From an uncultured Granulosicoccaceae bacterium (GTDB lineage Bacteria; Pseudomonadota; Gammaproteobacteria; Granulosicoccales; Granulosicoccaceae), in contig CALKXD010000084.1 of the NCBI GenBank assembly GCA_938003855.1, forward strand, positions 1-37,429: a stretch of 37,429 nt of DNA, in the 5' to 3' direction. The translations under genes were made by a program, and so were the position numbers. Positions 2 to 37,429 of this stretch are shown here, piece after piece; position 1 is the stretch's first letter, and every line of letters starts with the position of its first letter. A model generated the notes under the pieces. The model was given only the letters and a program-made list of their open reading frames with translations. It ran no database searches and was not told the origin of the DNA.

Positions 2-310
2 GGCGAGGATCGCCGCCCGACATTAAGTTGGCCGAGGCAAATTCCCTTAGGTGGCAAGCCCGCTGACGTTGTAAAGATCGCCAGTGATTATGCCGAATGG
101 ATGCAGCAAAATGATCTAGCCAAGTTGTTTGTCAATGCTGAACCCGGGGCGATATTAACCGGTACGGCACGCGAATTTTGCCGGCAGTGGAAAAACCAAA
201 GTGAAGTAACAGTGGCGGGCTCGCATTTTATTCAGGAAGATTCCCCCGCGCAGATTGCAACTGCCATAGAGCATTGGCTTGCAGAAAGAACAAAAGCAGA
301 GAACCACTAG
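2..310 (+). CDS. Haloalkane dehalogenase, C-terminal part (5' end outside window)
   Basis: The frame is open from the first bases of the window to a TAG at 308-310, so the gene begins upstream and only about 102 C-terminal residues are visible. The fragment carries NAEPGAILTG and, further on, GSHFIQEDSP, which match the C-terminal end of the alpha/beta-hydrolase fold in the LinB/DhaA (HLD-II) subfamily. The His of GSHFIQED is expected to be the catalytic base. The nucleophile Asp and the halide-binding Trp lie outside the window. Such enzymes hydrolyse a carbon-halogen bond to give an alcohol and halide in the cytoplasm. The stop codon directly abuts the ATG of the SDR gene, which suggests co-transcription and a possible alcohol-oxidising partner. 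Family assignment is firm; the substrate cannot be told. Confidence 0.9.
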   Translation, partial: GEDRRPTLSWPRQIPLGGKPADVVKIASDYAEWMQQNDLAKLFVNAEPGAILTGTAREFCRQWKNQSEVTVAGSHFIQEDSPAQIATAIEHWLAERTKAENH

Positions 311-1099
311 ATGGCAACGCCCAATTACACCAATACGCCATTCGACTTGACCGGGAAAACCGCATTGGTGACCGGGGCATCGGGTGGTCTCGGATCGCGA
401 TTCGCGTTAACGCTGGCGAGCGCCGGAGCCAATGTGGTGATTGCCGCTCGAGATGCCGCTAATCCGCAGTTGCAGCGCTTGCAGTCGCAGTTGCAGGAGA
501 CCGTAGAGGTCGCTAGTGTGTCGCTGGATGTGGCCAGTCAGGAGTCGATCAGCAATGCTTTTTCGCAGGCCGAGGATCAGTTAGGGCCAGTCGATGTGTT
601 GATTAATAATGCCGGCATCGCGATTCCGCAAACGGCGCTGAAGACCGATGAGCAATTATGGCAAAGCGTGTTGGGTACTAATCTTGGTGGCGCCTGGTTT
701 GTTGCGCGCGAGTTTGCCACCCGATTGGTGGCTGAAAAATTACCCGGTGCGGTGGTTAACATTACGTCTATTCTTGGTCAGCGCGTAAACAGTGGTGTGA
801 TGTCTTACGCTGTCTCGAAGGCTGGCCTTGAGCAAATGACGCGATCGCTGGCATTGGAATGGGCGCGACACAATATTCGGGTTAACTCGTTGGCTCCCGG
901 CTACATTATGACCGACATGAATCGCGATTACCTGCAGTCGGATGACGCGCTGCCGATGATTGGGAACATCCCGCAACGGCGCGTCGGTGATCCTGCCGAT
1001 CTGGATGGTGCTTTACTGTTGCTGGCGTCGGGTGCGTCGGCATTCATGACCGGCAGTACGGTGGTTGTGGACGGTGGCCATTTGCAGTCTTCACTATGA
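311..1099 (+). CDS. SDR family oxidoreductase
   Basis: This 262-aa protein has all classical short-chain dehydrogenase signatures: the cofactor loop TGASGGLG at about residues 21-28, NNAG at about 97-100, the catalytic Ser in NITS, and the catalytic YAVSK Tyr/Lys pair at about residue 160. A GGT/VDGGH C-terminal end is typical of FabG-like or gluconate/alcohol-oxidising members. The enzyme would oxidise or reduce a hydroxyl/carbonyl using NAD(P)(H) in the cytoplasm. The ATG starts immediately after the dehalogenase TAG with no intergenic base, so the two genes are very probably translationally coupled. A role in oxidising the alcohol released by dehalogenation is attractive but is inference. 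The exact substrate cannot be read from sequence. Confidence 0.93.
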   Translation: MATPNYTNTPFDLTGKTALVTGASGGLGSRFALTLASAGANVVIAARDAANPQLQRLQSQLQETVEVASVSLDVASQESISNAFSQAEDQLGPVDVLINNAGIAIPQTALKTDEQLWQSVLGTNLGGAWFVAREFATRLVAEKLPGAVVNITSILGQRVNSGVMSYAVSKAGLEQMTRSLALEWARHNIRVNSLAPGYIMTDMNRDYLQSDDALPMIGNIPQRRVGDPADLDGALLLLASGASAFMTGSTVVVDGGHLQSSL

Positions 1100-25116: not shown

Positions 25117-25309
25117 GTGCCCATCCAGAAACAAGCGCTACTGCGTACCACTCAGACACGCCATCTTTTGCCGACCACATGTAGTTACTTAAGAACAACT
25201 AAGCGCCTACCACAGGTAGTTACTTAAGAACGACTAAGCGCCTACCTGTGGTAGGCAAAATCTCACGCACCTGAATGATCCTCGCGACACCCTGTATCTG
25301 GATGGACAC
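25117..25309 (+). mobile_element. MITE-like inverted-repeat element, copy 1 (193 bp)
   Basis: The element has imperfect terminal inverted repeats, GTGCCCATCCAGAAACA at the left (25117-25133) and TGTATCTGGATGGACAC at the right (25293-25309), differing at two positions. It is flanked by a perfect 6-bp direct repeat TAGCTA (25111-25116 and 25310-25315). Inside are two tandem 35-bp units (25181-25215 and 25216-25250). The second unit forms a 10-bp perfect stem (25210-25219 with 25242-25251) around a 22-nt loop. There is no coding frame. It closely matches the copy at 27614-27771. It looks like a non-autonomous transposable element or a structured intergenic repeat; no transposase is in the window. 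Confidence 0.82.
25181..25250 (+). repeat. Two tandem 35-bp units within element copy 1
   Basis: Units 25181-25215 and 25216-25250 share GTAGTTACTTAAGAAC and ACTAAGCGCCTACC and differ at only a few positions. Copy 2 has a single unit, so this is a local duplication that explains the length difference between copies (195 against 160 bp counting the TIR-adjacent bases). Confidence 0.85.
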
Positions 25310-34952: not shown

Positions 34953-35696
34953 TCAGTGCAGATTCCGGCTGGCAAGTTCTTCATTGACCCACTTCAGCTG
35001 GCGATCGACGTCAATCGTCAACTGGCTGGTTATTTCGAGGTTGCGATCTTCGTAGACATCAGTGCCCTGGTGTGACTGTGCCCATTGATCGATGGTCTGG
35101 TCACGGACCTTCAGCAGCCATTCAACCTGTGGTCTGAAAAGCTTCATGGTTGCGGTGATCCATATGTTGACCGGCCACGACGGATACAGCAAGTCCATTT
35201 CGAAATTGTCCAGCATTTGGATAACGTGCTCAGCGCTGTAAAAGGTCTCTCCTGTGACCCATCGGTTAGTGGAAAACAAACCAATGGGATAGCCTTTGGG
35301 GTCCATCGAGATGGCAATAATATGGCTTAGCGCGTCGTCGCCTTTCGGCCAGTCGGCATCGCCGGTATAGGGTGCTGGTGATACACCTGAGGGCATGCCT
35401 TTTGACCTTAGGAACGTGTGAAAGTGACCGTTTTCACCGTTGAGTCCCCGGTGCGCATGGTAAAAATACTGCGAGTAGGAGTCCCCGTCGTGAACATCGC
35501 CCTTGGGGTAGTGGTCATACTCGACAAATTGACCCTGATCGCGCAGCACCTCCCGAACGACGTTGCCATAGTTTTCGTGTTTTTGGAGTAATCGATAACA
35601 GCGGTGGATATCAGTGCCGGCAGTTAGCATGTCGCGCAGTTGCTGTTCAGGCAGAACGGACAGGTGTGATCTGTTAAATTTATTGTTTGTGCTCAT
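34953..35696 (-). CDS. Uncharacterised protein, DUF6969-like
   Basis: The 247-aa protein appears to belong to the uncharacterised DUF6969 group, judged from the HYPKGDV, YSQYFYHAHRG and GHFHTFLR blocks (residues about 62-98), which are rich in His and Tyr. A later ISMDPKGYPIGLFSTNRWVTGETF segment looks like a conserved beta core. No signal peptide or membrane segment. The His-rich HAHR...HFH cluster could bind a metal. It is translationally coupled to the upstream sulfatase-modifying-fold lipoprotein (ATGA overlap), so it belongs to the Cys-rich cytochrome operon. Function unknown; family label is from memory of motifs. Confidence 0.7.
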   Translation of the reverse strand: MSTNNKFNRSHLSVLPEQQLRDMLTAGTDIHRCYRLLQKHENYGNVVREVLRDQGQFVEYDHYPKGDVHDGDSYSQYFYHAHRGLNGENGHFHTFLRSKGMPSGVSPAPYTGDADWPKGDDALSHIIAISMDPKGYPIGLFSTNRWVTGETFYSAEHVIQMLDNFEMDLLYPSWPVNIWITATMKLFRPQVEWLLKVRDQTIDQWAQSHQGTDVYEDRNLEITSQLTIDVDRQLKWVNEELASRNLH

Positions 35697-36583
35697 CGGG
35701 TAACCAGTCTAAATCCAACAAGGATATGTTTCAAATCTTTGGGGCGGGCATGTCGGGCGGCTGGCCGGCAAACCCCGCAACCGCTGTCATCCCAGGAACC
35801 GCCCTTAACCCAGGCGCGCCCGGCGTTCGGTGTATCGATCCATTCAAAAACCTGCCCGGCGGCATCAAGCAAGCCATAGGGGCTTGGTGTAGATATAGAC
35901 CCGACAGGCACGGTATCAAAGGGGCCGGAGTCGTGGCTGTTTAGGTGTCGGGCGTTAAATTCGTCCCCCCACGGAAAAGTCCTGCCGTCGTTTCCACGTG
36001 CGGCTTTGGTCCACTCGTTTTCCGTTGGCAGGTGCCATACTGTGCCTGTTTGTTTCGACAGCCATTTTGCATAAGCGTTCGCGTCGTGATAGCTCACCAG
36101 TACTACCGGGTGAAACTCACGGCCAACAGGTGGGCGCTGATCTACCCAGGCATGGCGACGGGTTCTCTGGAAGGGATGGACGAGGCCGTAGGATACCCAG
36201 GTGTCAGGATCGACGTCCGGTGCTGGATGCGCAGTGGCGGCAACGAACCGCTGGTACTGCTGATTGGTGATTGGTGTTGTAGTGATGCGAAAGGCATCGG
36301 TGCTAGCGGCGCTGCGTGGAGCTTCCCGATCATACCAGCCGGCGTCACGGGTCCGGCTGTGACCATACGCTTGCTCATCAAGTTGGTAGGCGTAGTCACG
36401 CTCGCGTTGATCCGAACCACGAATGAACTCACCGGCTGCAACTTCGACAGTGGCCGGCGCATGGAACGGTGATTCAAGCGGTTTCAGCGTTGTGGCGGAG
36501 CAGGCCGTCGTGGCCACGGCCAGGAGGCCAATAAGCCAGCATGAGTGGGCTCCGCGAACGGAGCCCATTCCAGACCGTGCCAC
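35693..36583 (-). CDS. Lipoprotein of formylglycine-generating enzyme (SUMF1) fold
   Basis: This protein has up to 296 aa (GTG at 36583; an ATG at 36568 gives 291). It has a lipoprotein signal with Cys28 in LLAVATTAC. The FGE-sulfatase domain follows, with VEVAAGEFIRGSD, ITTTPITNQQYQRFV, VLVSYHDANAYAKWLS, LPTENEWTKAARG, FPWGDEFNARHLN, GQVFEWI, VKGGSWDDSG and GFRLV. Near the C-terminus Cys269 and Cys272 (GCGVCRPAAR) lie near the catalytic region. By hand alignment one matches the second copper-binding Cys of true FGE and the first is replaced by Asp. It could modify proteins in the periplasm, or only bind. It lies 15 bp downstream of the Cys-repeat cytochrome gene and overlaps the DUF6969-like gene. 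Confidence 0.88.
   Translation of the reverse strand: MARSGMGSVRGAHSCWLIGLLAVATTACSATTLKPLESPFHAPATVEVAAGEFIRGSDQRERDYAYQLDEQAYGHSRTRDAGWYDREAPRSAASTDAFRITTTPITNQQYQRFVAATAHPAPDVDPDTWVSYGLVHPFQRTRRHAWVDQRPPVGREFHPVVLVSYHDANAYAKWLSKQTGTVWHLPTENEWTKAARGNDGRTFPWGDEFNARHLNSHDSGPFDTVPVGSISTPSPYGLLDAAGQVFEWIDTPNAGRAWVKGGSWDDSGCGVCRPAARHARPKDLKHILVGFRLVTR
36547..36566 (-). promoter_or_regulatory. Hairpin at the start of the FGE-fold gene
   Basis: A perfect 8-bp stem, GGGCTCCG and CGGAGCCC on the minus strand, has a TTCG loop and begins directly after the in-frame ATG at 36568. If GTG 36583 is the start, it lies a few codons in. There is no T-run. It may restrict translation initiation or mark an RNA processing point between the cytochrome and FGE-fold genes. 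Confidence 0.45.
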
Positions 36584-36598: not shown

Positions 36599-37429
36599 CT
36601 AGTTTTTAGCTGCGCAAGGGTTGCAGGGATTGCAGGGGTTGCAAGGATTACACGCCTTTGCCGCGCAAGGGTTACAGGCACTGGCCGCGCAAGGGTTGCA
36701 TGCTTTAGCCGCGCAAGGGTTGCAGGCACTGGCCGCACAAGGGTTGCATGCTTTAGCCGCGCAAGGGTTGCAGGCACTGGCCGCACAAGGGTTGCATGCT
36801 TTGGCCGCGCAGGGGTTACAGGCACCGGCCGCACAAGGGTTGCAAGCCTTGGCAGCGCAAGGATTGCAGGCGTTTTTGGCCGCACAGGGGTTGCCGGCAG
36901 CACACGGGTTGAAGCCGGCTTGCAGCTCAAGAGTGTAAGCTGAAAGTGCCAGCAGTTCCTGCGAGTTCCAGCCCAGTGGTGCTGCCTGCATTGGAGCGAC
37001 CATGCAGAAATTAACCATTTCGTCGACGTCCACTGAGCCGACGCCAGCCATTTGCTTGGGCATGGCTACTTCATGCGGGTAGGGTTCTGCGAATGTCGCA
37101 TTCAGCAACGCACCACCATTGTGGCAGGAGTTACAGGACAAGCCATTGGTGCTCAGACTTGTGTCATTCCAGAGGCGCTTGCCGAGCGCTGCCTGGCTTG
37201 CGATTGAGTCAGTATCTATTTGGATGCTTGCCGGTCTTACAAATTGTGATGCCTTGATACCGCCAGCACCACAGGGGTTGCAAGGGTTGCAGGCATTGGC
37301 TGCACATGGATTGCAAGGGTTGCATGCTTTAGCCGCGCAAGGATTGCAAGGGTTGCATGCTTTAGCCGCGCAGGGATTGCAAGGGTTGCATGCTTTAGCC
37401 GCGCAGGGATTGCAAGGGTTGCATGCTTT
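36599..37429 (-). CDS. c-type cytochrome flanked by Cys-rich Asn-Pro-Cys repeats (5' end outside window)
   Basis: The frame is open from the window edge to TAG at 36599, 276 codons visible. From the N-side come five 11-residue units of the type [11 protein letters not shown], then a linker, then a cytochrome c domain. The haem site is CNSCH (about 37121-37135). Downstream of it are MPKQMAG and a [27 protein letters not shown] end. A C-terminal array follows with nine octads CNPCAA(K/S/G)A and a terminal NPC run. The last about 103 residues hold about 25 Cys. The cytochrome part resembles SoxA-like c-type cytochromes, including a lone Cys that might ligate haem (inference). The N-terminal signal is not in view. 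Function unknown; metal binding or thiol chemistry in the periplasm is plausible. Confidence 0.8.
36601..36911 (-). repeat. 24-bp tandem repeat array (C-terminal Cys repeat)
   Basis: The DNA encoding the C-terminal array is a tandem of 24-bp units, often alternating in a 48-bp higher-order period (the Lys-type and Ser-type octads). Units are nearly identical at the base level, which points to recent expansion by slippage or recombination. It ends in a run of 9-bp NPC codons. Confidence 0.9.
37259..37429 (-). repeat. 33-bp tandem repeat array (N-side Cys repeat)
   Basis: Five units of 33 bp encode C-NPC-NPC plus a 4-residue spacer (AAKA three times, then AANA, then GAGG). The three upstream units are almost identical and continue to the window edge, so more may lie beyond. 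Unit length differs from the 24-bp array on the other side of the haem domain. Confidence 0.9.

Follow-up and report, generated by a model that had tools for sequence, protein, structure and literature searches.

A putative peptide-modifying metalloenzyme, DUF6969, accompanies exported cysteine-repeat proteins, including a probable haem lipoprotein of a marine Granulosicoccaceae bacterium

An exported haem protein, encoded at one end of a 37,429-nucleotide stretch of DNA (the window) from a marine bacterium of the Granulosicoccaceae, carries its cytochrome c domain between dozens of cysteine repeats. Encoded close by is a member of the unstudied family DUF6969, which in many Pseudomonadota is usually a neighbour of one or another exported Cys-repeat peptide. 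This linkage suggests that DUF6969 and such peptides are an enzyme and its substrate, a pair so far undescribed, in which cysteines would be modified in the service of metal or sulfur handling. Judging from sequences and structure models, we lean towards the view that arrays modified by DUF6969 hold a thiophilic cargo, metal or sulfur, beside a redox haem. The positions of the features are compiled in Table 1.

Table 1. Features of the cysteine-array locus, in window coordinates.
Feature	Position	Strand	Basis or remark
DUF6969 protein	34953..35696	-	PF22308, 2.8e-77, 259.3 bits against a cut-off of 27; start overlaps the FGE-like stop by 4 bp
FGE-sulfatase-like exported protein	35693..36583	-	PF03781, 1.9e-41; 15 bp 3' of the array gene
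Array/cytochrome c lipoprotein (probable), C-terminal 276 residues and stop	36599..37429	-	5' part on contig C201
C-terminal array, 24/48-bp (8-residue) units ACNPCAA[KSG]	36602..36899	-	Tandem Repeats Finder
SoxA/TsdA-type cytochrome c domain	36908..37267	-	Pfam PF21342, AlphaFold, Foldseek, VIA
Cys142, candidate second haem ligand	37004..37006	-	Invariant; lines up with the Cys of SoxA MINAC
Haem-binding site CNSCH, residues 99-103	37121..37135	-	Invariant in 40 relatives
N-terminal array, 33-bp (11-residue) units	37272..37429	-	Tandem Repeats Finder; runs off the contig end

The reading frame, on whose upstream integrity the preliminary description had made its proposal depend, is open over all 276 visible residues. 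In this visible part of the gene, from an assembly in which the array copy number is not readable, we counted 43 Cys and 25 NPC motifs around a single CNSCH site, with 15 Cys and 10 NPC before the haem site and 26 Cys and 15 NPC after it. The earlier claim of two different Cys-rich NPC arrays around a cytochrome c domain, with about 40 Cys, is thereby confirmed. The window stops within an array because its contig, C84, stops there. The 5' part of the gene lies on another contig of this genome, C201 (L009, positions 2-388, minus strand), where it begins with MKNDLPSPKFPRKRLSTAILSGTLAMAGAAVLITAGC (MKNDLPSP...LITAGC), a lipoprotein-like signal that is followed by the arrays; the signal peptide that had been expected is present. 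The genes flanking this part on C201 stand in the order found upstream of orthologues, and the ends of C84 and C201 have a repeat of 49-80 bp in common. Based on the signal-bearing start, the orthologous gene order, and the common end repeat, we infer that C84 and C201 join into one gene, whose product is probably a lipoprotein with the order array, haem domain, array. The earlier prediction from the letters of the window is supported in this respect: the protein is a polythiol, is exported, and has its haem domain between two arrays.

A search of the genome located other NPC-coding DNA solely near the ends of C201, C137, C43, and C278, as is expected when an assembler breaks inside repeats. 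The pieces on C137 and C43 (L010, 3-302; L011, 3-176) probably represent both ends of a second gene for an NPC-array lipoprotein, likewise broken in the assembly, and a third, short NPC peptide is encoded in the same genome (L012, 2595-2879). Elsewhere in the window, a short tandem repeat of 35 bp is present in 2.2 copies (25170-25246).

The spacing of the cysteines in the arrays is regular, with 24 steps of +3 (C-x2-C), 13 of +5 (C-x4-C), and two of +6 (C-x5-C). The units, described earlier as nearly identical in their DNA, turned out to be only 75-92% alike. When the nine 8-residue units were compared pair by pair, the codons of their core, ACNPCAA, differed 99 times, always synonymously and never with a change of amino acid; variation among the units is confined to the eighth residue. 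What is kept is therefore the peptide, and the core of the repeats is under purifying selection. A pattern scan for the unit over the whole genome gave 25 matches (0 in the control), nearly all of them in the window gene and one paralogue. The expectation that copy number varies between strains held in the form of differences between species of the genus, whose orthologues have 9-29 NPC motifs before the haem site and 12-22 after it. Judged by these sequences, the array length is free and the motif is constrained. The likeness of the units (75-92%) and their varying number would also fit a recent, meaningless expansion without function, to which we attach next to no probability: the purely synonymous differences in the core, together with the conservation of the arrays across families, refute it. 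A Pfam Cornifin match on the arrays (34.7 bits, just below the cut-off) was discarded as a low-complexity artefact.

The haem domain matched PF21342 (SoxA-TsdA_cyt-c) with 36.5 bits against a curated cut-off of 27, as did all 40 of the representatives compared (40/40 above the family threshold). Its AlphaFold model (pLDDT 93) gave TsdA or SoxA proteins as all of the best 13 Foldseek matches (E 0.009 to 0.2, probability 0.92 to 1.00), and VIA superposed it on SoxA (1h31) with Z 9.1 and 3.1 Å over 93 residues. In an alignment of 40 haem domains, C45, C48, H49, and C88 (alignment numbering) were invariant, as was a further His, and C88 aligned with the SoxA Cys. The fold, the PF21342 match, and this invariant Cys are what the domain has in common with SoxA/TsdA cytochromes; the window protein differs from them in having one haem only and in the missing catalytic residues of TsdA. 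The active site of TsdA needs Arg109, Arg119, and Ser127 around Cys123 (PMC4423706). By spacing from the Cys, their equivalents are absent from the 40 domains: position C-14 is F, A, or Y, C-4 is M (39/40), and C+4 is P (40/40). We therefore call the domain a Cys-containing SoxA/TsdA-type domain and not a thiosulfate dehydrogenase. We saw no SoxX or TsdB partner for the window haem protein. The haem is probably His/Cys-ligated and of low potential.

The haem domain was detected in 13 of 57 related genomes; within the genus, 9 of the 13 genomes besides that of the window have it. When one genome was scanned for each species, 104 relatives were found, of which 80 were retained, and these carry one of two kinds of array. 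Proteins with NPC arrays occur in Granulosicoccaceae, some Marinobacter, Oceanisphaera, Zobellella, one Pseudomonas, and several Betaproteobacteria. Proteins of the second kind, in which the domain follows an acidic GEAEG array and which have about three Cys each, occur in other Marinobacter, Halomonadaceae, and some Alphaproteobacteria. The repeats are kept in close relatives, where they had been required by the preliminary description, with the same architecture in Granulosicoccaceae, Marinobacter, Oceanisphaera, and Betaproteobacteria, and the orthologues with the same neighbours that it had sought do exist. No relative was found in the viral contigs searched, and among plasmids there was one weak, unannotated match, in a Cupriavidus megaplasmid.

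Our strongest result concerns the neighbours: the two kinds of array differ in the genes that accompany them. Among 50 whole genomes, some incomplete and all counted as related genomes and not as independent events, DUF6969 was present in 21/27 with NPC arrays versus 0/23 with GEAEG arrays, and a TTL-PqqD ligase in 0/27 versus 23/23. At the fetched loci, to be read with the same reserve, DUF6969 occurred in 23/36 of the NPC type versus 0/42 of the GEAEG type, and TTL-PqqD in 0/36 versus 22/42. On the tree of the haem domain, array type has to change only 2-3 times, which makes the counts dependent on one another. The change at locus L207 is informative despite this kinship: an NPC protein lies there inside the Halomonadaceae GEAEG group, DUF6969 adjoins it, and the genome is without TTL-PqqD. 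The ligase is a fusion of TTL (Pfam, 2.7e-56) with a PqqD-like part (22.6 bits, just below the cut-off of 23.4); it takes the corresponding place beside the Glu-array form of the same haem protein and was not found in the genome of the window. That array and putative enzyme switch together while the haem domain stays the same amounts to a natural experiment, which is rare for unknown enzymes. Neither this switch nor the DUF6969 neighbour figured in the preliminary description. The TTL-PqqD genes at L068 (2120-4525), L079 (2973-5369), and other loci may belong to a system that modifies glutamate arrays, and at L072 an extra small GEAEG peptide is encoded nearby. Of the 27 NPC genomes, six are without DUF6969, and in five of these its place downstream is taken by a multihaem cytochrome gene. 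We noted C554/MtrC-like multihaem cytochromes 3' of the NPC haem gene at L047, L049, L062, L069, L085, and L100, mostly without DUF6969.

Throughout the genus, the array gene is followed by the FGE-like gene and then by DUF6969, closely packed in the window (a 15-bp gap, then a 4-bp overlap); outside the genus, DUF6969 alone usually remains near the array gene. FGE itself is a copper enzyme that uses a Cys pair with C-x4-C spacing and targets the motif CxPxR. The FGE-like protein matches the profile of the FGE/PvdO/EgtB superfamily (PF03781), and the arrays contain C-x-P, the start of CxPxR. It differs from FGE in its export and in its Cys pair, which is invariant as GCGVC in the alignment and has C-x2-C spacing, and the arrays of the window are without the Arg of CxPxR. 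Two genomes of a further genus, one that lies outside the class, also have DUF6969 together with an FGE-like protein and an NPC peptide (L220, L221). We also weighed a structural role, in which NPC arrays would form disulfide-linked surface material and GEAEG arrays an acidic coat, with the haem domain or the FGE-like partner only aiding oxidation. Low-complexity repeats of varying length, on a protein that is exported or lipid-anchored and in some loci neighboured by multihaem cytochromes, accord with such a role, which nevertheless appears very unlikely to us: the strict conservation of so unusual a haem domain, its extra Cys invariant, exceeds the needs of a scaffold.

DUF6969 is encoded in 26 of 274 genomes of the class and in 20 of 398 of the phylum. 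The peptides encoded beside it are small and exported, and their Cys repeats are of mutually unlike sequence (NPCA, GGNPCAPSAR, SPCSL, CAATTCAAT, CCGCCG, CAAKKP, CCAAEG, AACAAG, and CGAK). By a strict rule, a Cys-repeat peptide was present at 22/41 DUF6969 loci versus 0/67 windows of the same genomes lying away from DUF6969 and 24/600 windows from other loci; an earlier automatic rule, which required a signal-like segment, gave 20/41. Reading each locus, which involves judgement, raised the number to about 35/41. The remaining loci without Cys repeats (about 6/41) include the second DUF6969 gene of the window's genome (L138, 5000-5836), which has no Cys-repeat neighbour within about 5 kb. In about 8-9 loci, a sulfur transporter (YeeE/YedE), a Cys peptide, DUF6969, and a rhodanese form a row, the flanks of two having been assigned by Pfam; the row, with a short Cys-repeat peptide, recurs at L133-L137 and L213-L216. 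A thioredoxin gene is present at the DUF6969 locus L140, and at L225 (5637-9161), MNIO, DUF2063, DoxX, a CGAK peptide, and DUF6969 follow one another in a bufferin-like operon.

The DUF6969 protein has no signal peptide. Alignment of 42 family members showed H80, H82, E88, H91, and H93 to be invariant and H125 to be 98% conserved (HxH-E-HxH-H). In the AlphaFold model (pLDDT 88), the conserved His and Glu lie on or beside three strands, their clustering being deduced from strand order only, and this arrangement suggests a metal site. The model had no significant match in the PDB (Foldseek best E 0.34; VIA best Z 4.7 over 51 residues), an absence that does not prove a new fold. We found no characterised homologue of DUF6969, and our literature search found no paper naming DUF6969 or the repeat (NPCAAK, CNPCAA). 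The conserved His and Glu, together with the gene linkage, lead us to regard DUF6969 as a putative enzyme. As a tentative proposal, in which we place somewhat less confidence than in the cargo-holding arrays, DUF6969 may found a new class of metalloenzymes that modify peptides and have a fold absent from the PDB. Their targets would be exported Cys-repeat proteins of diverse kinds, with the haem-array protein as one product; TTL-PqqD would be a second pathway, for Glu arrays, and one redox domain would serve two unrelated array chemistries.

How the parts might work together can be outlined from sequence comparison. The Cys arrays of the lipoprotein, which would reside in the outer membrane or the periplasm, would constitute a substrate like those of RiPPs, which are ribosomally made, enzyme-modified peptides. 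DUF6969, as a predicted metalloenzyme of the cytoplasm, would modify or protect the array Cys, and the protein would then undergo Sec export, lipidation, and haem insertion. The exported FGE-like partner may, with less assurance, act further on the C-N-P motifs. The finished array would hold a thiophilic cargo, a Cu(I)-like metal or sulfane sulfur, and the haem beside it would move electrons to or from that cargo. Modification of the array Cys before export is what we infer from the association of DUF6969 with Cys repeats regardless of their sequence, from its replacement by a peptide ligase where the arrays are of Glu, and from its occurrence in an MNIO operon.

A close known parallel is with the bufferins of MNIO systems, which chelate excess copper and of which a Buf1-Cytochrom_C-FGE-sulfatase fusion is reported (PMC12452194). 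Like the present arrays, bufferins are Cys-rich peptides that are made by the ribosome and exported, at times in repeated form; they have a modifying enzyme of their own (PMC12452194), the part proposed here for DUF6969, and at L225 DUF6969 sits in such an operon. The repeats of the window differ in being NPC and not EGKCG or DUF2282, and DUF6969 (PF22308) is a Pfam family separate from MNIO (PF05114). There is no MNIO gene beside the window gene; the single one of the genome is on contig C110. We rejected MNIO as the general array-modifying enzyme, since it is present in only 9/20 genomes and absent from 11/20. A rival reading is that the exported arrays act as a plain metallothionein-like sponge for Cu(I), Zn, or Hg, without enzymatic modification, and that DUF6969 is a metal chaperone. 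The 43 Cys in regular C-x2-C/C-x4-C spacing, the His-rich DUF6969, the operon at L225, and the copper chelation and Buf1 fusion reported for bufferins (PMC12452194) are in keeping with this idea. We judge it quite improbable, as it leaves unexplained the switch to TTL-PqqD, a typical peptide-modifying set-up, with Glu arrays, and we recognised no known gene for copper handling among the conserved neighbours.

A sulfur carrier is another reading: the array Cys would carry persulfide or thiosulfonate as in SoxY, the haem domain would load or oxidise them, and DUF6969 would be a sulfur-transfer helper. We regard it as unlikely. The TsdA residues Arg C-4, Arg C-14, and Ser C+4 are here Met, Phe/Ala, and Pro, this haem domain serves beside Glu arrays without Cys as well, and the conserved neighbours of the window gene did not include a recognisable Sox or rhodanese gene. 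Its attraction lies in the best fold matches, which are to TsdA and SoxA only, in the YeeE/YedE and rhodanese genes at DUF6969 loci and the thioredoxin at L140, and in the mechanism of TsdA, which employs a Cys S-thiosulfonate on the haem ligand (PMC4423706).

For arrays modified by DUF6969 and holding a cargo, analogy can be drawn in two directions. The TsdA/SoxA-like fold and the sulfur-gene and thioredoxin neighbours of DUF6969 would favour sulfur as the cargo; the bufferin-like operon, the FGE-like partner, and the reported Buf1-Cytochrom_C-FGE fusion would favour metal. That this haem domain is also combined with Glu arrays argues against a chemistry that needs array thiols, and metal holding is thereby slightly favoured. 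Through the linkage, DUF6969 gains a definite substrate that can be tested in Marinobacter and Oceanisphaera, which are culturable. If our reading of DUF6969 is true, an enzyme family would be added, beside MNIOs, to those acting on exported Cys-rich peptides, and the TTL-PqqD proteins of Halomonas and Marinobacter would likewise gain a candidate substrate. A further arrangement was seen at L226 (4744-5838), where NPC arrays are fused to a cytochrome P460-like domain (22.3 bits, below the cut-off) and adjoin DUF6969; this is perhaps a second haem type joined to NPC arrays.
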